Positions 12,060 through 64,000 of a stretch of 64,000 nucleotides of DNA are shown piece after piece. The DNA is from Natronorubrum halophilum. Its GTDB lineage: Archaea > Halobacteriota > Halobacteria > Halobacteriales > Natrialbaceae. Below the pieces are notes generated by a model, which was not told the DNA's origin, made no database searches, and was given only the letters and a program-made list of their open reading frames with translations. Within the stretch, counting starts at the first letter, position 1, and every line of letters begins with the position of its first letter. Location of the stretch: contig NZ_QQTY01000003.1 in NCBI RefSeq assembly GCF_003670115.1, positions 124,001 to 188,000 of the forward strand, written 5' to 3'. The position numbers and the translations under genes are program-made.

Positions 12060-12194
12060 ATGGAACGCCTGACAGGCGTGCGTGAACGCCTACGAAACGT
12101 CGGGAACGAATGGATTGTATCGATAGACAACGAGGAGCACACGAACCCGCAAGTCGCCTCCGTGATCGTTCGAGACGACGAAGCCGTCTCGTGA
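12060..12194 (+). CDS. Possible 44-residue small protein
   Basis: An ATG at 12060 opens 44 codons ending in TGA, with haloarchaeal codon use and an amphipathic, acidic product (MERLTGVRERLRN, then WIVSIDNEEH and ASVIVRDDEAVS). An in-frame TAA at 12013 limits the 5' end. No family is recognised and no clear TATA element is seen. It is transcribed convergently with the M23 peptidase gene. Translation is plausible but unproven. Confidence 0.35.
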   Translation: MERLTGVRERLRNVGNEWIVSIDNEEHTNPQVASVIVRDDEAVS

Positions 12195-12300
12195 TGACGA
12201 GAGAGTTTGCTCTCTCGAACCGACTCGGCGTAGCCGAGACTCCTAGCGCGAGGAACCAGCATAAACGGCGAGGGGGATGTCATTGCGGCAGACCGCGAGT

Positions 12301-13044
12301 TCAGATGCCGGAGTAGTCTTTCGGAATTCTGGTTCCTGCCGTGACGGTTTCGCCGTCGGCTCCTGGAATCGAGAGGTGGTTGCCGTTCCGTTCGATAGTG
12401 AAGTGCAGGTGAGGACCGGTCGAGTTGCCGGTGTCACCCATGCCGCCGATTTTCTGGCCGCGCGTGACGCTCTCACCCTGTACCACGTCGAAGCTGTTCA
12501 GGTGGCAGTACATCGTCTGGTAGCCATTTCCGTGGCCGAGTTTCAGGTAGTTACCGCAGCCACCCGATTCGTAGCTTCGGATGTCCACGACGCCGTCGTG
12601 GGCCGCGTAAATCGGCTCGCCGATGTTGCCGTTCGCGCCGAAGTCCACCGCGTAGTGGCCAGGGCGAGCGCCGTACGGCGACGTGATATACCCCGTAATC
12701 GGCCAGTCGAAGTCCGAACCGCCGCCGGACGTGGACTGGAGATACTGCTCGACCGACCAGCCCCATACGTTTCGGTCGAGCCAGTGGACGCCCCACCATC
12801 TGTAGCCGTCTTTATCGGTCGGCCCGTTCATGATCTCGCCGACCTCGCCGTTGTTTAGCGTGGCGACGACGGGCGAGTCGGTGCCGGGCTGTTCCCGTGT
12901 GTTCAGTGCGCTTGCGGTAACTTCGACTTGCTCACCGTCGCTAAACGCGCTCGCCGAACCGCTCAGTGCTACGGTTCCGGTGATTCCTGTCGCGGCAATT
13001 CCGAGTGATTTAACGACCGACCGCCTGCTGAATTTTCTTGGCAT
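12301..13044 (-). CDS. Tat-exported SH3b-M23 peptidase
   Basis: A 247-residue secreted protein. A twin-arginine signal (SRRSVVKSLG, hydrophobic core, ASA cleavage region near residue 33) is followed by an SH3b-like domain (about 38-103) and a LytM/M23 metallopeptidase domain (about 112-245). Zinc ligands are H130 and D134 (GHYAVDFG) and H214 (GPHLHF); the catalytic His is H181 (MYCHL). All active residues are present. M23 enzymes cut peptidoglycan cross-bridges, which haloarchaea do not have, so the likely target is bacterial wall or a host glycoprotein. The ATG at 13044 is preferred over an in-frame TTG at 13056. Confidence 0.88.
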   Translation of the reverse strand: MPRKFSRRSVVKSLGIAATGITGTVALSGSASAFSDGEQVEVTASALNTREQPGTDSPVVATLNNGEVGEIMNGPTDKDGYRWWGVHWLDRNVWGWSVEQYLQSTSGGGSDFDWPITGYITSPYGARPGHYAVDFGANGNIGEPIYAAHDGVVDIRSYESGGCGNYLKLGHGNGYQTMYCHLNSFDVVQGESVTRGQKIGGMGDTGNSTGPHLHFTIERNGNHLSIPGADGETVTAGTRIPKDYSGI

Positions 13045-13301
13045 ATCCGAATACAAAATACATTCACAAATGATTAAAAGTTACGGTTGTTTCTATATTG
13101 ATTATATAAATATGCTGTCGAGATACAGTCATCTACTGGACAAATTTTGGATTCTATTGACATGAATTTTCAAGAACCGTTCGCCGTGACTCTCGAGTCC
13201 GGTCCGCTTCACAGACAGCAGTTCCGATCTGAAAGGAATCAGTAGTTGATCACGCACGCCCGTGGATTAGTTGCACGGCCATCGTACAAGGGCGGGTTTC
13301 C

Positions 13302-52823: not shown

Positions 52824-53015
52824 TGTGAACTCGGTCGTTCCGAACCCTCCGATCTGGGTTTCACAACGCGTCGATGTCGTCCCGATAATCGAATATCCTA
52901 ATGGTCACACACTCCGTCCGGATTAGTGGTAACGAATAGCACACTGTATCCAGTCATGATGGAAAGAATAATGAATTCAGATAGATTTTTCAACATCGAT
53001 GACGATAGCCGTCGT

Positions 53016-53786
53016 ATGAAAAGCGATAACGCGGGATCGTCGGGGCAACGGATCAATGCACTGATAAAATGTTTCAACATCATTGAAGAGTTGAAAGAGC
53101 GAGGGAGTGTGGGCGTCTCTGATCTCGCCGCGGCGCTCGACATGCCGACGAGTACAGTCTACGTGTACCTACAGACGCTAGAAGAGCTGGAATACGTGAT
53201 CGCCGACCAGGGCGAGTATCGCCTGAGCTTGCGGTTTCTAGATATCGGCTGTCGGGTTCGGAATCGATTGGACGTGTTTTCGGCGGCACGCCACGAGATG
53301 ATCGACCTCTCGCAAGAGACCGGCGAGACGGTCGGCATCGGTGTCGTTGAGAACGGGAAGCGGGTTGAGCTGTGGCAGATCGAGGGTGAGGACGCCATCA
53401 ACGACAAGATACACGTCGGAGAACACACGTACCTGCACTGGACGTCACTCGGGAAGACGTTGCTCGCGAGCCTCTCTGACGAAGAGATCGATCGCATCGT
53501 CGATCGTCAGGGGCTCCCGAAGGCGACCGAGAACACGATCACCGACCGAGCGGAACTCCTCGAGGAGGTCGAGCAGATCCGCCGACAGGGGTTCACGATC
53601 GAGGACGAGGAGCGAAAAGTCGGTATCCGGAGCGTGTCGGTTCCGCTCAGCGACGTTGACGGAAACACGGTCGCCGCACTCGGTATCAACGCCCCGAAGA
53701 ACAAGATGGTTCCCCAGCGGTGTGACGAGTACGTCTCCCGACTGAAGCGGAAAGCGAACGTCATCTCGATCCGCTACAACTACTGA
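53016..53786 (+). CDS. IclR-family regulator
   Basis: A 256-residue regulator. The winged helix is near the N-terminus (INALIKCFNIIEELKERG, VSDLAAALDMPTSTVYVYL) and the IclR effector domain is at about 85-250 (VGIGVVENGKRVELWQIEG, YLHWTSLGKTLLASL, GFTIEDEERKVGIRSVSVPL). The ATG at 53016 follows a TATA-like GATTTTTC run 28 nt upstream, so it is preferred over upstream starts. It heads the catabolic island and is its most likely regulator; IclR proteins typically control sugar-acid or aromatic catabolism. Confidence 0.87.
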   Translation: MKSDNAGSSGQRINALIKCFNIIEELKERGSVGVSDLAAALDMPTSTVYVYLQTLEELEYVIADQGEYRLSLRFLDIGCRVRNRLDVFSAARHEMIDLSQETGETVGIGVVENGKRVELWQIEGEDAINDKIHVGEHTYLHWTSLGKTLLASLSDEEIDRIVDRQGLPKATENTITDRAELLEEVEQIRRQGFTIEDEERKVGIRSVSVPLSDVDGNTVAALGINAPKNKMVPQRCDEYVSRLKRKANVISIRYNY

Positions 53787-54039
53787 TCAGGTTTCCAATA
53801 TCGTTGTAATCGAGTTGGGCTCCCGATCGGCCGCTCGGGGATGAACTTCCGTACAGCCGGTCTCCCGAAAACGGAGCCGATTCGGCAACTGCCACGCGAT
53901 AGTCCGTGTGAATGCACCCGTCGTGTATGGGACGAACGCGTTCGTGCCGTCCCCCTCGACGGGTTGGCGCTGTTCACCAGCGCGTCCAAATGCTCGGCTT
54001 GGGGGAATCTTTTTACGGTCTAGCGAGCACTTCATACAT

Positions 54040-54843
54040 ATGTCGTTCAAAGGCGCAGCAGCGAACAGCGTGTCTTGGGGGAACCATACAGCCGACGAAA
54101 TCGGCGAAATCGGCGACCGAAACGGCTCGATACTCGTTGTCCCGGTCGGGAGCGTCGAACAGCACGGTAACCACCTTCCCGTAGCAACGGATAGTATCCT
54201 CGTCGAAGCCGTCGCAGTCCTCGGCGCGGAGCGAGTGACCGACGACGTTCCGATCCTCACGCTGCCGACGTTCTGGAGCGGCTTTTCGCCACACCACCTC
54301 CACTTCGGCGGGACGGTGTCGCTCGAGTTCGAACACATGCTAGGGGCGATCGAAGACGTCGCCGACACGGCGCTCGAGAACGGATTCGACGCCCTGGTGC
54401 TGCTGAACGGCCACGGAGGGAACATGTCGCTGATCGACAGTGCCGTCAGTACGATCGGGGTCGACCACGACGACGTCGAGGTGCTCGGGCTCACGTACTT
54501 CCAGCTCGCGAGCGGTTTTATCGACGAGATCCGGGAGAGCGATATCGGCGGAATGGCTCACGGCGGCGAGTTCGAGACCTCGCTGATGTTACACCTGCGC
54601 GAAGAACTCGTCGACGTCGATCGACTCGACGGTACGTACATGGACGAGCCCTACGACCTCGGGACGAAAGATTTGGTGGAAGGCGGCCCGCTCGCGGTCT
54701 ACCGTGGATTCGAAGAGTACTCCGCGAGCGGGGCGATCGGCGATCCCGGACTGGCGTCCGTCGGGAAGGGCGAGCAGATTTTCGAACTGCTCGGCGACGA
54801 ACTGGAATCGCTACTGCGGGACGTTCATGATCGGAACCGGTAG
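54040..54843 (+). CDS. Creatininase-family amidohydrolase
   Basis: A 267-residue protein. Metal-binding motifs of the creatininase family are present: VPVGSVEQHGNHLPVATDS (Glu and His ligands plus Asp), FSPHHLHFGGTVSLEF, LLNGHGGN and HGGEFETSLMLHL. Family members cleave creatinine, N-formyl intermediates or lactam/amide bonds. TATA-like CTTTTTACGG (about 54008-54017) supports the ATG at 54040 and a leaderless message. It lies just downstream of the IclR gene. Confidence 0.86.
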   Translation: MSFKGAAANSVSWGNHTADEIGEIGDRNGSILVVPVGSVEQHGNHLPVATDSILVEAVAVLGAERVTDDVPILTLPTFWSGFSPHHLHFGGTVSLEFEHMLGAIEDVADTALENGFDALVLLNGHGGNMSLIDSAVSTIGVDHDDVEVLGLTYFQLASGFIDEIRESDIGGMAHGGEFETSLMLHLREELVDVDRLDGTYMDEPYDLGTKDLVEGGPLAVYRGFEEYSASGAIGDPGLASVGKGEQIFELLGDELESLLRDVHDRNR

Positions 54844-56376: not shown

Positions 56377-56531
56377 GGGGAAACACGTGGTCAATCGGCG
56401 GCGCGTGTCAAATAACTACTGCCCTGCTCCGCCGTCCCGTGGCAAATGGGGTCGGTCGTGACCGATACGCTCACCGGCGGCCGCCTGAGCAGCCAGCTTT
56501 ATGGTGGTAAGTCGGGTCTTGAAAGGTGGAT

Positions 56532-57668
56532 ATGCCGACGCCGACGCTAACCGACAGCACGCCGTGCCTGGACCAGTCTCGATATGACCTGGAGACGCCC
56601 GCGGTCGTCGTCGACCTCGACACGATGGAGGCCAACATGCGGGAGTTCGCCGAATTCGCACAGCGCCACGACGTGGCGTTGCGATCGCACGTCAAGACGC
56701 ACAAAATCCCGGACATCGCCCATCGGCAAGAGGAGCTATCGGGCGGCGATGGGATCCTCTGTCAGACGCTGAGCGAGGCCGAAGTGATGGCTCAAAACGG
56801 GATTTCGGACATCTACCTCTCGTACATGGTCGTCGAGGAGTCGAAGCTGGACCGCCTCGTGCGGCTCTCCGAGCGACTCGAGTCGTTCGCGACGACCGTC
56901 GACTGCCCGGGTAACATCGACCCGCTGCAGGCGGCGGCCGACCGACGCGGCGCGACCGTCGACGCGGTCCTGGAGATTGACGTCGGCCTCGGCCGCACGG
57001 GCGTCCCACCCGGCGAGCCAGCCCTGGAGATGGCAGCGCGGATCGTCGACGCCGAAAACCTGTCGTTCGCCGGACTCATGGGCTTCGAGGGGCACGTTAA
57101 CGCCGAAGCCGAGTCCGAGGCCGACTACGAACGGCTCTGTGAGGCAGCGATGGACGAACTCCAGGGGACGGCCGAACTGTTGGAGTCGGACGGAGTTCCG
57201 GTCGACGACGTGAGGGTCGGCTCGACCGGCACGGCCCGCCACAGCGGCAAACACCCCGTCGTCACCGAGATCAACCCCGGGATGTACCCGTTCAACGACG
57301 CCAACGTCGTCTCCTGGGCTGGCCCGATCGGGCCGGCGGACTGCGCGCTGACGGTCCTGACGACGGTCATCTCGAAACCGGCCGACGACAGGGTGATCGT
57401 CGACGCCGGCAGCAAGACGATGTCGTTCGATGTCGACCGTCAGCCCATCCCAAACGAGCGCGACGACATCGAATACGTCACCGCCTCCGAGGAGCACGGG
57501 TGGATCGACTCGAGCGACGCCGACGAGCCGATCGAGGTCGGGGATCGACTAGAGTTTATCGTCCCGCACGTCTGTACGACCATCAACCTCCACGACACGC
57601 TGATCGGCACTCGAGACGATCGCGTCGAGGAAGTCTGGAACGTACAGGCCCGCGGGAAAGAGAAGTAG
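56532..57668 (+). CDS. D-threonine aldolase-like PLP enzyme
   Basis: A 378-residue fold-type III PLP enzyme of the DSD1/D-threonine aldolase family. The PLP Lys is K55 (RSHVKTHKIPDIA), with VDVGLGRTGV-like EIDVGLGRTGV, GFEGHVN, VGSTGTARHSGKH and EINPGMYPFNDAN. The C-terminal metal-binding His and Cys (VPHVCTTINLHD) are present. It would cleave or deaminate a beta-hydroxy D-amino acid. The ATG at 56532 is preferred over GTG 56526; TTTATGG about 30 nt upstream fits. Confidence 0.85.
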   Translation: MPTPTLTDSTPCLDQSRYDLETPAVVVDLDTMEANMREFAEFAQRHDVALRSHVKTHKIPDIAHRQEELSGGDGILCQTLSEAEVMAQNGISDIYLSYMVVEESKLDRLVRLSERLESFATTVDCPGNIDPLQAAADRRGATVDAVLEIDVGLGRTGVPPGEPALEMAARIVDAENLSFAGLMGFEGHVNAEAESEADYERLCEAAMDELQGTAELLESDGVPVDDVRVGSTGTARHSGKHPVVTEINPGMYPFNDANVVSWAGPIGPADCALTVLTTVISKPADDRVIVDAGSKTMSFDVDRQPIPNERDDIEYVTASEEHGWIDSSDADEPIEVGDRLEFIVPHVCTTINLHDTLIGTRDDRVEEVWNVQARGKEK

Positions 57669-57746: not shown

Positions 57747-58904
57747 TCAGCCGTCGATCCGGTACTCGGCGACCCTGTCCTCGTCGACGGTGATCCCGAG
57801 ACCCGGCTCGTCGGGAACGGCGATCGCCCCGTTATCGATCTCGAACGGCTCCTCGATCACGTCGTCTTCCCAGGCGTAGTAGACGGTGTCCGGCGGAAGC
57901 GTGAACCCGGGGATGCCGCTAACGGCGTGCAGTATCGCGGCGGTTCGGATTCCGAGGTCGAACGCGCAGTGGTGCGCCATCGGGATGCCGGCGTCCTCGG
58001 CGATCGCCGCGAGCTGCCGGAGCCCGGAGATGCCGCCGGCTGGCGTCATGTCGACGACGGCGACGTCGAGCGCGCCGTGCTCGATCAGTTCGCGCAGATT
58101 GTGGGCGATGTAGGTGTCTTCGTTCGGGGCGATCGGTTGCGGGGTCCGCTGGCGCAGGCGCGCCAGCGACCGGTGGCTGTCGACCTGAATCGGCTGTTCG
58201 AGGTACTGGAGGTAGACGCCGGCATCGGCCAGCGCCGCGCCGACGCGGACCGCCTCGTCGAGTCGCCATCCCTGATTCGGGTCGAGACGGAACTCGAGCC
58301 GTCCGTCGACCTCGTCGTCCATCGCGACGATCCGTTCGACGTCCCGCTTCCAGTCGCGCCCCGCCTTCGTCTTTAGCACGTCGAACCCCTCGTCGAGCGC
58401 GGTCGCGGCGTGGGCCCGAGATTCCTCGAGCGGGAGGATACCGAGACAGTAGGCCGTGTCGACGGTGTTCGTCTGGTCGTACTCGGTGTCCATTCGCCGC
58501 GTCGTCGTCCCCGGCGCAGTCCATCCGCCGAGCAGTTCGTAGATCGGCTTCTCCAGGTCTTTCCCGACGATATCCCAGCAGGCCATCTCGACCGCTGAAA
58601 AGAACATATCGACGTTCGTATACTCGATGAACAGTAGCCGTCGCAGGCTCTCGACCTCGAACGGCGAGTGCCCCTCGATGATCGGTGCAACGCCGTCTTC
58701 CAGCGTCGTGACCGTCGTCTTCGGCGAGAGGAACACCCGCATCTCGCCCCATCCGGAGATTCCTTCGTCGGTGTCTACCCGGACCAGCACTCGATCGACG
58801 TCCTCGACGGCGCCGTGGTTCGTCACGTACGGCGAGAGCCCTCCGTCCTCCAGGTCGACGACGTTCATATTTACAGCAAACGCTTCTACGCCAGTGATTT
58901 CCAT
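57747..58904 (-). CDS. Mandelate racemase/muconate-lactonizing-family enzyme
   Basis: A 385-residue enolase-superfamily protein. Catalytic Lys pair K178/K180 (LKTKAG), Mg2+ ligands D208 (RLDPNQGW), E236 (LEQPIQ) and E262 (PNEDTY), and a likely acid/base in AHHCAFDLG. Typical of sugar-acid dehydratases (gluconate, galactonate, fuconate type) or racemases. A TATA-like CTATTAAAAC (58928-58937) lies about 28 nt before the ATG at 58904, supporting it over upstream starts. Confidence 0.87.
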   Translation of the reverse strand: MEITGVEAFAVNMNVVDLEDGGLSPYVTNHGAVEDVDRVLVRVDTDEGISGWGEMRVFLSPKTTVTTLEDGVAPIIEGHSPFEVESLRRLLFIEYTNVDMFFSAVEMACWDIVGKDLEKPIYELLGGWTAPGTTTRRMDTEYDQTNTVDTAYCLGILPLEESRAHAATALDEGFDVLKTKAGRDWKRDVERIVAMDDEVDGRLEFRLDPNQGWRLDEAVRVGAALADAGVYLQYLEQPIQVDSHRSLARLRQRTPQPIAPNEDTYIAHNLRELIEHGALDVAVVDMTPAGGISGLRQLAAIAEDAGIPMAHHCAFDLGIRTAAILHAVSGIPGFTLPPDTVYYAWEDDVIEEPFEIDNGAIAVPDEPGLGITVDEDRVAEYRIDG

Positions 58905-58927
58905 ACACGATGGGGTACGCGACCGAT

Positions 58928-58937
58928 CTATTAAAAC
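58928..58937 (-). promoter_or_regulatory. TATA element of enolase-superfamily gene
   Basis: TTTTAATAG on the minus strand, about 24-33 nt before the ATG at 58904; fixes this start. Confidence 0.5.
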
Positions 58938-59030
58938 CTCGGATGCGTGCAATCGGGACGAGCTCTCACGGACGTGAGCGGAACTGCGCTCCACCGGACC
59001 AAACCGCGCCGCAAACGGGTACGTCGCCCG

Positions 59031-60246: not shown

Positions 60247-61413
60247 ATGAGTTCACTGAGGCTAGAGAGCATACGGAAGGTTTTCGACGATCCGAACGAA
60301 GGTGAGATCGTCGCGGTAAACGATGTATCTATGGAGATCGAGGACGGGGAGTTCATGGTGCTCGTCGGACCGTCCGGGAGCGGAAAGTCAACGCTGCTTC
60401 GCTTGATCTCCGGGCTCGAAACGCTGACGAGCGGAGAGCTCTATCTCGGTGGCGAGGAGATCGGACAGACCAAACCGAAAAACCGGGACCTCGCGATGGT
60501 GTTTCAGAACTATGCGCTCTATCCGCATCTCACGGCCCGCGGCAACATGTCGTTCGGGCTGAAGATGCAGCGGGAACTCGACGAAGCGGAGATCGACGAG
60601 CGCGTCGACGAAGCCGCCGACATCATGGACATCGGAGACCTGCTCGACAAGATGCCGAGCGAGCTCTCGGGCGGGCAACAACAGCGCGTCGCGCTCGGCC
60701 GGGCGATCGTCCGCGAACCGGCTGTCTTCCTGATGGACGAACCGCTCTCGAATCTCGACGCCAAGCTCCGCTCGCAGATGCGGACCGAGATTCAGCGCCT
60801 GCAGAGCGAACTCGACGTCACGACGATCTACGTCACGCACGACCAGACCGAGGCGATGACGATGGGCGACCGAATCGCGATCATGAATCAGGGCGAGCTT
60901 CAGCAGGTTGCGACGCCGCTCGAGGCCTACTACGAGCCGGTCAACGTCTTCGTCGCGGGGTTCATCGGATCGCCGAGCATGAACTTCATCTCGATGACCA
61001 CCGACTGGTCCAACGACCGGCTGACGCTCGAAAACGACGCCTTCTCTTACGGCACGTCGAACGTACTCGGCGACGAACTGACCGACGACGGCCGGGAGAT
61101 CCTCCTCGGGATCCGCCCCGAGGACATCGATCTCGTTCGGTCGCCGACGGAGACGTCGGTCACCGTCGAAGTCGACGTCATCGAACCGCTCGGGGAGAAA
61201 CATCTCCTCTACTTCGATATCGGTCGGGAGACCTACATCGCGAGCGTCCCGGGATACTACCAGATCGAGGGCGAAGACAGGATTCACCTCGACATTCCCG
61301 AACAGCGGGTCCACCTGTTCGACGCCGAGTCGCATCGGACGATCAAGAACCGCGAACCAGCCTCGGACGACGATGCCCGTCTGGGCGAACAAATCACGGT
61401 CAACGACCGATGA
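60247..61413 (+). CDS. Sugar-type ABC transporter ATPase (UgpC/MsmK-like)
   Basis: A 388-residue carbohydrate-uptake ATPase. Walker A GPSGSGKST, Q-loop MVFQNYALYPHL, signature LSGGQQQRVALGRA, Walker B VFLMDEPLSNLD and H-loop YVTHDQ. A TOBE/OB regulatory region of about 140 residues follows (GIRPEDIDLV, EPLGEKHLLYF). CUT1-type, for sugars or glycerol phosphates. TATA-like ATCTATAAG (60209-60217) gives a short leader of about 8 nt. The permease start near 63619 probably belongs to the same transporter. Confidence 0.9.
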   Translation: MSSLRLESIRKVFDDPNEGEIVAVNDVSMEIEDGEFMVLVGPSGSGKSTLLRLISGLETLTSGELYLGGEEIGQTKPKNRDLAMVFQNYALYPHLTARGNMSFGLKMQRELDEAEIDERVDEAADIMDIGDLLDKMPSELSGGQQQRVALGRAIVREPAVFLMDEPLSNLDAKLRSQMRTEIQRLQSELDVTTIYVTHDQTEAMTMGDRIAIMNQGELQQVATPLEAYYEPVNVFVAGFIGSPSMNFISMTTDWSNDRLTLENDAFSYGTSNVLGDELTDDGREILLGIRPEDIDLVRSPTETSVTVEVDVIEPLGEKHLLYFDIGRETYIASVPGYYQIEGEDRIHLDIPEQRVHLFDAESHRTIKNREPASDDDARLGEQITVNDR

Positions 61414-61441: not shown

Positions 61442-62266
61442 TTACTCCGATACCGGAGGCGTTTCGATGTCGTACACCGTCCGTTCGAAGCTGTGATCGA
61501 GACCCGCCGTCAGTCCACCGTCGACCGTGAGTTCGGTCCCGGTAACGAACGAGGACATCGGCGAGGCCAGGTAGAGGACCGCGTCGGCGACTTCTTCCGG
61601 CCGGCCGAGTCGGTCGACGGCGTACTGGTCGAGCCACTCCTTTTCGACTTTCGGAGCGTCCTTCCGCGCCATCTCCTCGCGCCGAGTCTCCGTCTGAATC
61701 GTTCCGGGACAGACGACGTTCGACCGGATACCGTGGCAGCCGTACTGCGTCGCGATCACCCTCGAGAGCGCGAACAGCCCGCTTTTGGCCGACGAGTACG
61801 ACGTCAGCGAAATTCCGGTCAGCGCGTTGACCGACGACGTGTGGACCATCCGGCCGCCACCGCTCTCGATCATCGCCGGCAGCGCCGCTTTCGCGCAGAG
61901 GAACGGGCCCGTGAGGTTGATCGCCAGGTTGCGCTCCCAAACGTCCTCGTCGATCTCGTGAAGTTTTCCGTCGCCGAACGACCCGCCAGCGTTGTTGACG
62001 AGCACGTCGAGACTGCCGAACTCCTCGACGGTCGTCTCGACGAGCGCTTCGACCTGAGTAGCGTCGCTCACGTCCGTCGGGACGAACGTTACGTCGCCGG
62101 CCCCTTCCGCCAGTTCGACCTCGACGTCGGTGCCGCTCTCCTCGTCGATATCGGCGATCACGACGTTCGCACCCTCCGCGGCGAATCGAGTCGCGATCGC
62201 GCGCCCAATTCCGGACGCCCCACCGGTAACGATAGCAGTATCTCCCTCCAACAGTTGCTTTTGCAT
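61442..62266 (-). CDS. SDR-family oxidoreductase
   Basis: A 274-residue classical short-chain dehydrogenase. TGGASGIGRAIA at about 15-26, acidic D39 favouring NAD, NNAG, catalytic Ser in VHTSSVNAL, Y and K in YSSAKSGLF, and FVTGTELTVDGGLTAG. All active residues are present. Likely sugar or sugar-acid dehydrogenase by context. Convergent with the ABC ATPase gene (28 nt apart) and divergent from the TIM-barrel gene. Confidence 0.87.
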   Translation of the reverse strand: MQKQLLEGDTAIVTGGASGIGRAIATRFAAEGANVVIADIDEESGTDVEVELAEGAGDVTFVPTDVSDATQVEALVETTVEEFGSLDVLVNNAGGSFGDGKLHEIDEDVWERNLAINLTGPFLCAKAALPAMIESGGGRMVHTSSVNALTGISLTSYSSAKSGLFALSRVIATQYGCHGIRSNVVCPGTIQTETRREEMARKDAPKVEKEWLDQYAVDRLGRPEEVADAVLYLASPMSSFVTGTELTVDGGLTAGLDHSFERTVYDIETPPVSE

Positions 62267-62292: not shown

Positions 62293-62315
62293 ATTTATCT
62301 CTTACCTAGATTTTT
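62293..62315. promoter_or_regulatory. Divergent promoter of SDR and TIM-barrel genes
   Basis: Two TATA-like elements back to back: AGATAAAT on the minus strand (62293-62300), about 31 nt before the SDR start, and GATTTTT on the plus strand (62309-62315), about 29 nt before the ATG at 62341. Confidence 0.5.
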
Positions 62316-62340
62316 GTCGCTCGACGCTAACGTACAGCGT

Positions 62341-63495
62341 ATGACGTTCGCTACGTGGGCGTACCCGTGGGACCTGCTCGATACGGGCGTCGAGTCGGTC
62401 GCCGAACAGCTCCTCGATCTCGGGATCACCGAGATAAACCTCGCCACCAACTACCACACCGTACAAACGTATCTACCGCACAATCCTGAACGACGGACGT
62501 TCTTCGCCAGGTCGAGTTCGTACTTCCAGCCCGGAGAGATGTACGGCGACCTCGAGCCCGTCCCGAACGAGCGGATGGGCGACGACGACTGGCTCGCGGT
62601 GATCGACCGCGAACTCGCCGATACCGAGGTATCGCTGAACTCCTGGACCGTCGGCTGTCACAACTCGCGGCTCGGGATGTCTCGTCCCGAGTACGCGCTA
62701 CGGAACGCGTTCGGCGATCCGCTCGTGTTCGGCCTCTGTCCGTCCCGGTCCGCCGTACAGGAGTATCTCCTCGCGCTGCTCGCCGACCTCGACGACCGGG
62801 CGGCCTTCGAGCGGATCGAGCTCGAGACGTTCAACTACTTCTACGGCACCGGTTACGGGTGGCACCACGACAAGTTCCACGCGCGCCTCGGTGCGCTCGG
62901 CGAATTCTTGTTCGGCGTGTGCTTTTGCGACGACTGCCGTGCGAACGCGCGGCAAACGGGCGTTGACGCCGACGCGGTTGCGGAGACCGTCAGGTCGACC
63001 GTGGACGCGATCTCCGCCGGCGAGTTCCCCCACGACGTCGATGTCGGCGGGTGGTTTCGGGAGCATCCCGAGGTCGGTGCCTACATCGACGTACGGATCA
63101 ACACGCTGACCGATCTGTACCGTCGGCTCGCGGCCGTCGTCGAGGACGCGGAACTGGGCGCGTACGTGGGCATGAAGGGCGTGGAGAACTCCTGGATGCA
63201 CGGACTGGACCTCCGGGCGCTATCGGACTCGCTCGACTACGTTACGGTCATGGCCTATCGGGAGACTCGAGAAGAGACGGTCGACTGCTTGCAGCTAACT
63301 CGAGAGCTGGTCGATCTTCCGGTGCACGTCGGCGTCCTTCCCGCACATCCCTACGTCCACGACGAGGCGACGGTCGGAGACATCGTGGACGGACTCGTCG
63401 AGAACGATACCGATCGCGTGTCGTTCTACAACTACGGGCTCTTGCCCGAACGCAATCTCGACTGGATCGGATCTTCGCTAGCCACACACCGGTGA
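62341..63495 (+). CDS. TIM-barrel protein, glycoside-hydrolase-like
   Basis: A 384-residue protein starting MTFATWAYPWDLLD. It has TIM-barrel-like periodicity: TEINLATNYHT, then long helical insertions, RIELETFNYFYGTGYGW, a Cys cluster FGVCFCDDCRANARQTG that resembles the CFC..C signature of putative glycoside hydrolases, YVGMKGVENSW and DYVTVMAYRET. Glu/Asp in these strands could be catalytic, but the family is not recognised with certainty. The ATG at 62341 is well placed relative to the promoter. It lies between the SDR and the permease gene, so it is probably part of the carbohydrate system. Confidence 0.65.
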   Translation: MTFATWAYPWDLLDTGVESVAEQLLDLGITEINLATNYHTVQTYLPHNPERRTFFARSSSYFQPGEMYGDLEPVPNERMGDDDWLAVIDRELADTEVSLNSWTVGCHNSRLGMSRPEYALRNAFGDPLVFGLCPSRSAVQEYLLALLADLDDRAAFERIELETFNYFYGTGYGWHHDKFHARLGALGEFLFGVCFCDDCRANARQTGVDADAVAETVRSTVDAISAGEFPHDVDVGGWFREHPEVGAYIDVRINTLTDLYRRLAAVVEDAELGAYVGMKGVENSWMHGLDLRALSDSLDYVTVMAYRETREETVDCLQLTRELVDLPVHVGVLPAHPYVHDEATVGDIVDGLVENDTDRVSFYNYGLLPERNLDWIGSSLATHR

Positions 63496-63618
63496 CGCGG
63501 GCCGGGCAAAGAATTATGAACACCTGTGCGTAACTGGATCACACGTGACACACAGACATGACTGACGTTGAAGCTACTATGAATGAACGGAACTGCTCGC
63601 GGCGGAGGCGTCCGTACC

Positions 63619-64000
63619 ATGAATGAGGAGTCACTGAAGTCACCGGGCACGTGGCGGCGTATCGTAACTAGTGACGCCGACCTGTCGAAAAAGCAGCGCA
63701 ACACGGTGATCGCGTGGGCCGCGCTTGCGCCGGTCCTGCTGTGGCTGTTGGTGTTCAAGTATCTCGCGCTCGGCTGGAACATCGTCCTGACGTTCTTCGA
63801 CCGAAGCTACACCGGCGAAATGTCGTTCGTCGGGTTGGAAAACTGGTCGATGTTGATGCAGGATCCGGTGTTTCCGACGGCGCTACGGAACACCATTATC
63901 CTCTTCGCGACGATCCCCGTCGGCATCGCGCTGGCGCTGTTCATCGCGATCCTGCTCAACCAGAAATTTCCGGGATCGAAGGTATTCCGCTCGGTGTTTT
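63619..64000 (+). CDS. Sugar ABC transporter permease, partial
   Basis: The start of a CUT1/MalF-like permease running off the window. It begins MNEESLKSPGTWRRIVTSD, with helix 1 (about 33-53, WAALAPVLLWLLVFKYL), the periplasmic loop FDRSYTGEMSFVGLENWSML and helix 2 (NTIILFATIPVGIALALF). The EAA loop lies beyond the window. It belongs with the ABC ATPase at 60247. A binding-protein gene is not seen within the window and is expected to its right. Confidence 0.85.
   Translation, partial: MNEESLKSPGTWRRIVTSDADLSKKQRNTVIAWAALAPVLLWLLVFKYLALGWNIVLTFFDRSYTGEMSFVGLENWSMLMQDPVFPTALRNTIILFATIPVGIALALFIAILLNQKFPGSKVFRSVF

Follow-up and report, generated by a model that had tools for sequence, protein, structure and literature searches.

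Haloarchaea do not possess peptidoglycan, and a gene for an exported M23-type peptidase in the haloarchaeon Natronorubrum halophilum raises the question of what its product cleaves and what the cell gains from it. The gene lies in a stretch of 64,000 nucleotides of one contig, which is referred to here as the window. The original prediction described the product as an exported M23 peptidase with an SH3b domain and an intact LytM active site, and considered it a plausible weapon against bacteria, acquired from them. The description of the protein agrees with our results, while its use and its immediate origin are better read in a different way.

Domain organization of the exported protein

The open reading frame occupies positions 12301–13044 of the minus strand, with the ATG at 13044 and the stop codon at 12301–12303, and encodes 247 residues. 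Residues 1–33 (12946–13044, minus strand) read SRRSVVK ... SGSASA followed by Phe, and are predicted from the sequence to form a Tat signal peptide with a twin-arginine motif, a hydrophobic stretch, and an A-S-A cleavage site but no lipobox Cys. The two arginine residues are invariant in 14 relatives. Without the signal peptide, the protein is mildly acidic (pI 4.8).

Residues 36–104 (12733–12939, minus strand) form an SH3b-type, putatively wall-binding domain. The SH3_3 profile matches residues 45–86 with 21.5 bits, which is below the cut-off of 27; the cut-off is exceeded (49.6 bits) by a relative in which this SH3b domain family is present four times. This half of the AlphaFold model is confident (pLDDT of approximately 80–95) and contains seven predicted strands. 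The M23 half is weaker, and the whole model has a mean pLDDT of 65 and a pTM of 0.47.

The M23/LytM metallopeptidase domain covers residues 105–247 (12304–12732, minus strand). The Pfam profile Peptidase_M23 matches residues 130–224 with 100.5 bits against a cut-off of 28.7, and the complete HxxxD / H / HxH active site is present. We presume from the roles in LytM that His130 (12655–12657), Asp134 (12643–12645), and His214 (12403–12405) are the Zn ligands and that His181 (12502–12504) and His212 (12409–12411) are catalytic. The four positions originally named are exact, and His212 of the HxH pair has to be added to them. All five residues are invariant in 14 aligned family members. In structural comparisons, the M23 half matched the solved peptidoglycan hydrolases ShyA (E = 5e-9) and StM23 (9gy1, 38% identity), as well as EnpA, LytM, lysostaphin, and zoocin A. 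LasA and pseudoalterin were also among the fold matches. The SH3b fold did not appear among the best structural hits, which were determined by the M23 half. Taken together, the protein is probably a Tat-secreted, Zn-dependent endopeptidase.

A hairpin-bearing stretch (TGATGACGAGAGAG..CTCTCTCGAAC) lies at approximately 12180–12230, directly past the 3′ end of the gene. It has one short match elsewhere in the genome (44 bases, 84%), and an Rfam search of the stretch gave no match. It may mark one end of a mobile or IS element.

A common SH3b domain on different wall enzymes

In relatives, closely similar SH3b domains are fused to four kinds of enzymes, namely M23, Amidase_2, SLT transglycosylase, and glucosaminidase. 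The SH3b domains of these proteins are 57–100% identical to each other, and their genes are often adjacent. SLT-SH3b, SH3b-M23, and SH3b-Amidase_2 are consecutive genes in Halocatena marina (locus L068), as are SH3b-Amidase_2, SH3b-M23, and glucosaminidase-SH3b in genome G180 (L069), and an Amidase_2-SH3b gene adjoins the SH3b-M23 gene in G205 (L067). Fusions also occur: SLT-SH3b-M23 in L006 and L009, and glucosaminidase-SH3b-SH3b-M23 in L081. Within one genome, SH3b domains attached to different catalytic domains have a mean identity of 82.6%. Between genomes, the mean identity is 75.1% for the same catalytic type and 70.1% for different types.

The genome of the window (G000) encodes two further proteins of this kind, a Tat-Amidase_2-SH3b protein (C1:495897, L162) and a third Tat-SH3b protein (C2:262396, L062:5412-6152). 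The identity between their SH3b domains and the one in the M23 enzyme is just 47–49%. Searches with the second half of the L062 protein gave no match in Pfam, NCBIfam, or plasmids and nothing meaningful in the PDB; by eye only, it resembles SleB-type cell wall hydrolases. No SLT or glucosaminidase protein was found when this genome was searched for them.

Two additional proteins were noted. In an 871-residue protein (L111:3889-6501, L113:3877-6489, and L077:14269-16881), Amidase_2 is combined with an alpha/beta hydrolase-like domain and four copies of SH3b. A second M23-like protein of the window's genome (C1:1257242-1257526; L063:4646-6211, minus strand) is a membrane protein whose relatives are widespread in the family (55–75 bits, dozens of genomes), and it seems to have no relationship to the exported enzymes.

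Since the same SH3b domain is attached to enzymes for muramyl-peptide, glycan, and peptide bonds, peptidoglycan is the only substrate that they have in common. As an argument for peptidoglycan, the shared domain is much stronger than M23 by itself, and peptidoglycan is very likely the substrate of the window enzyme. Some M23 enzymes cleave other proteins, and LasA and pseudoalterin, which matched the fold, would be the models for an action on an archaeal surface protein or an elastin-like protein. However, the occurrence of the same SH3b domain on the amidase, transglycosylase, and glucosaminidase proteins and the fact that the nearest solved relatives are peptidoglycan hydrolases make such a target very unlikely.

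Distribution and origin of the gene

When 392 genomes of the order were searched at the protein level (E up to 1e-15), 57 of them gave matches, and approximately two dozen of these matches are full-length or nearly so, with an identity of at least 60%. No other member of the genus among the genomes searched had a match. Among the named carriers are Haladaptatus, Halocatena, and Halorussus, while the homologues of Halegenticoccus are more distant. All close relatives of the protein are haloarchaeal, in keeping with a haloarchaeal host.

The M23-domain phylogeny proposed with the original prediction was constructed from 94 domains and 125 columns, and its resolution is limited. The window copy was grouped (97/96) with those of G016, G114, G289 (Haladaptatus pallidirubidus), and G205, and this group sits within a larger Haladaptatus/Halocatena set. 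The data are compatible with a single clade of the 43 archaeal domains (p-AU 0.56). The DNA of the closest homologue, that of G016, is similar (90% identity) between 12284 and 13166, which covers the gene and its promoter only, and the flanks are unrelated. The limits of similarity to G114 resemble these. Therefore, the gene and its promoter look like a single-gene transfer unit.

From these comparisons, the immediate source of the gene appears to be another haloarchaeon. A bacterial origin is likely in the ultimate sense, because the archaeal M23 domains fall within a bacterial enzyme family, but the proposed acquisition from bacteria does not describe the recent step, as the gene nests among Haladaptatus copies. 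The simplest reading would be an old bacterial acquisition followed by single-gene transfer among haloarchaea.

Two other sources were considered and rejected. A recent direct transfer from a bacterium is inconsistent with the nesting of the M23 domain in haloarchaeal sequences. For a phage or plasmid origin, tblastn gave no phage homologue above 60% identity, and the sole close plasmid match is a haloarchaeal record (Halocatena salina, 72%). In functional terms, phage M23 families do match the domain, and a virus-derived lysin or tail peptidase might be envisaged on this ground. Such a protein is hardly conceivable here, given the Tat signal, the absence of recognized viral genes among the nearby genes scanned, the identity of phage homologues below 60%, and an archaeal host without peptidoglycan to lyse.

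The gene is missing from the other members of the genus that were searched, and the copy of one relative (G053) contains a stop codon, which could also suggest a transient passenger, left over from gene transfer and inactive or unexpressed. However, the active site is intact in all of the 14 aligned members, and dN/dS values against five homologues are 0.06–0.12, so that the gene is maintained under strong purifying selection. The promoter region is conserved along with the gene; a TATA-like element recognized by eye (13100–13112, minus strand), approximately 60 bp upstream of the ATG, is inside the stretch shared with G016. We consider the passenger explanation highly improbable.

Two putative loci for wall sugars

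In bacteria, NamZ, NagZ, and AnmK take part in peptidoglycan recycling and the utilization of MurNAc, and Bacillus subtilis adds MurQ and a transporter. NamZ, NagZ, AnmK, and transporters are all present in the genome of the window, NamZ in two copies. The AnmK gene (C3:4388-5539) is located on the same 708-kb contig as the M23 gene, and its product matches at the NCBIfam equivalog level (438 bits against a cut-off of 387). The surrounding cluster (L170) encodes a NamZ in which both domains are matched (200 and 141 bits), together with a short-chain dehydrogenase (SDR), a member of the creatininase family, and a HAD phosphatase. It also contains genes for an Opp-type ABC transporter, whose binding protein is a Tat lipoprotein, and for a beta-lactamase-fold hydrolase that most resembles PBP4B (PBP4B/AmpH-like).

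The clustering of haloarchaeal NamZ, NagZ-type GH3, AnmK, beta-lactamase-fold hydrolase, and Opp-type transport genes resembles the recycling genes of bacteria. In contrast to the bacterial systems, it occurs in a peptidoglycan-free archaeon, and the MurQ etherase was not found in the genome, where TIGR00274 gave only partial SIS matches far below the cut-off. An SDR, a creatininase-family hydrolase, and a protein of the type encoded at 62314–63495 (see below) recur instead. As a speculation, a MurQ-free route could involve the recurrent genes for SDR, creatininase-family, and HAD proteins. Searches of an open-access collection of papers retrieved no report of haloarchaeal AnmK, NamZ, or NagZ.

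A second putative wall-sugar locus starts at approximately 52.9 kb in the window and extends past its right end. Its genes were compared with 20 AnmK neighborhoods of order-mates. The left end is an IclR-family regulator (52968–53786, plus strand; Pfam IclR_C, 125.6 bits) with a homologue in 9/20 neighborhoods, followed by a creatininase-family hydrolase (53908–54843, plus strand; 15/20) and an enolase-superfamily (MR/MLE) enzyme (57747–58994, minus strand; 6/20). A MalK-type sugar ABC ATPase (60247–61413, plus strand) is followed by an SDR (61442–62266, minus strand) that is 54% identical to the SDR of the AnmK cluster, and a protein without a Pfam or NCBIfam match (62314–63495, plus strand), which is present in 16/20 neighborhoods and mostly adjoins NamZ there. 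A gene for a sugar ABC permease begins at 63583 (plus strand) and reaches the end of the window at 64000. The locus runs on beyond it (L226, G000:C3:184000-203800) with a second permease, a binding protein, an exported NagZ, GH20, and an exported NamZ. The exported GH3 protein carries the NagZ motif KHFPGHGDTHADSH. NagZ and GH20 could also serve chitin sugars. The creatininase, the SDR, the 62314–63495 protein, and the NamZ of this locus are paralogues of those in the AnmK cluster.

The protein family of 62314–63495 is also found at L170:14306-15466, and it accompanies NamZ in most haloarchaeal AnmK clusters. Beside the wall-sugar genes, positions 56526–57668 encode an enzyme similar to D-serine dehydratase and 3-hydroxy-D-aspartate aldolase, which might handle D-amino acids.

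AnmK was found in 26 of the 392 genomes of the order. In the 20 neighborhoods, NamZ accompanies it in 19, an ABC transporter in 19, NagZ in 17, a beta-lactamase-fold hydrolase in 16, and a creatininase in 15. An SH3b/M23 protein is present in 20/26 AnmK genomes compared with 57/392 overall (Fisher p = 8e-14); common descent within two genera inflates this value. At the genus level, the overlap is 6 to 7 of 11 genera compared with 20/95 overall (p = 0.01–0.001). G111 and G114 both have close copies of the M23 gene but gave no match for AnmK. Therefore, the hydrolase and the catabolic locus are separable, and the former is independent of the latter.

Comparison with known peptidoglycan hydrolases

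Archaeal modular peptidoglycan hydrolases were surveyed by Strock et al. 2025 (PMC12352652). In Halogranum salarium B-1, Woldo consists of an M23 domain and two PG_binding_1 domains, and Danwoldo consists of a glucosaminidase domain and two PG_binding_1 domains; both proteins, when secreted, kill Halalkalibacterium halodurans (PMC12352652). Because of these experiments on close relatives, the core idea that haloarchaeal M23 enzymes kill bacteria is not new. The window enzyme is likewise haloarchaeal and predicted to be Tat-exported, and in both cases one type of binding domain is common to different catalytic domains. Its M23 domain (residues 105–247) is related to NCBIfam NF052336, which we take from its label to be the Woldo family, although the score of 190.7 bits is far below the cut-off of 500.

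The domain order is different. In Woldo, M23 precedes the two PG_binding_1 domains, whereas SH3b is placed ahead of M23 in the window protein. A search for PG_binding_1 in the window protein and its genome found none, and the architecture of M23 with tandem PG_binding_1 is absent from this protein. A catalytic and a putative wall-binding domain are still combined on one exported protein. Because the SH3 domain scores too low for Pfam, the protein may have been missed by a survey that relies on Pfam domains. A Woldo-type protein of G220 (L065:5243-6190) links the two architectures, since its M23 domain is 86% identical to that of the window protein yet is accompanied by PG_binding_1 domains. 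This M23 domain falls within the SH3b-M23 clade, which indicates that binding domains were swapped.

Among bacterial enzymes, lysostaphin, LytM, and zoocin A have in common with the window enzyme both the M23 fold and an active site of the pattern HxxxD ... H ... HxH. The window enzyme differs from the lysostaphin type in that the SH3b domain is N-terminal and SH3_3-like, and in that the producer has no peptidoglycan of its own to protect.

Proposed role in bacterial-wall utilization

We propose, as the probable reading, that the enzyme belongs to a haloarchaeal system for the utilization of bacterial walls, which may be accompanied by the lysis of living bacteria. After export by the Tat pathway, the SH3b domain would bind bacterial peptidoglycan, and the M23 domain would cut peptide cross-links jointly with the Amidase_2 enzyme. 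The M23 enzyme would be one of a wall-degrading set with a common SH3b domain. In the window's genome, this set would consist of the M23 enzyme, the Amidase_2 enzyme, and the third Tat-SH3b protein, and in relatives SLT transglycosylases and glucosaminidases would belong to it as well. Exported NamZ and NagZ would trim the glycan, and ABC transporters would import the wall fragments. In the cytoplasm, NamZ, AnmK, and the PBP4B/AmpH-like hydrolase would process the imported material, so that the walls of live or dead bacteria may become a source of carbon and nitrogen. Several findings count against this assignment. Approximately 40 kb separate the M23 gene from the nearer sugar locus, and 130 kb separate it from the AnmK cluster. 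No MurQ was found in the genome, close copies of the M23 gene occur in G111 and G114, which gave no AnmK match, and chitin sugars are a further possible substrate of NagZ and GH20.

The enzyme could instead be a dedicated antibacterial weapon, secreted to kill competing halophilic bacteria, with any nutrients being incidental. The lethal action of Woldo and Danwoldo, with their M23 and glucosaminidase domains, on H. halodurans is in line with this explanation (PMC12352652). The same is true of the patchy, single-gene distribution of the M23 gene and of its close copies in genomes without AnmK. However, the genome of the window encodes the release, uptake, and catabolism of wall sugars, and AnmK is enriched together with SH3b/M23 enzymes. 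The uptake and catabolic genes point at least as much to feeding as to a weapon, and we regard a dedicated weapon as rather unlikely. As to the original prediction, a peptidoglycan substrate is strongly supported, while a weapon is only one of two live uses. The choice among antagonism, predation, and scavenging was left undecided for the archaeal enzymes in the 2025 paper, in which AnmK, NagZ, and NamZ are not mentioned (PMC12352652).

Utilization of bacterial walls may also be more general. Tentatively, and with a confidence slightly short of even, we suggest that several haloarchaeal lineages have a complete and horizontally mobile wall-eating system, in which secreted enzymes with an interchangeable SH3b domain attack different bonds of peptidoglycan and are combined with a conserved, MurQ-free locus for NamZ, NagZ, AnmK, and ABC transporters. 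Genes for the release, uptake, and catabolism of MurNAc fragments in a peptidoglycan-free archaeon are a concrete reason to expect feeding. If this is true, haloarchaea would consume bacterial biomass in brines, and a MurQ-free MurNAc pathway possibly awaits discovery in them.
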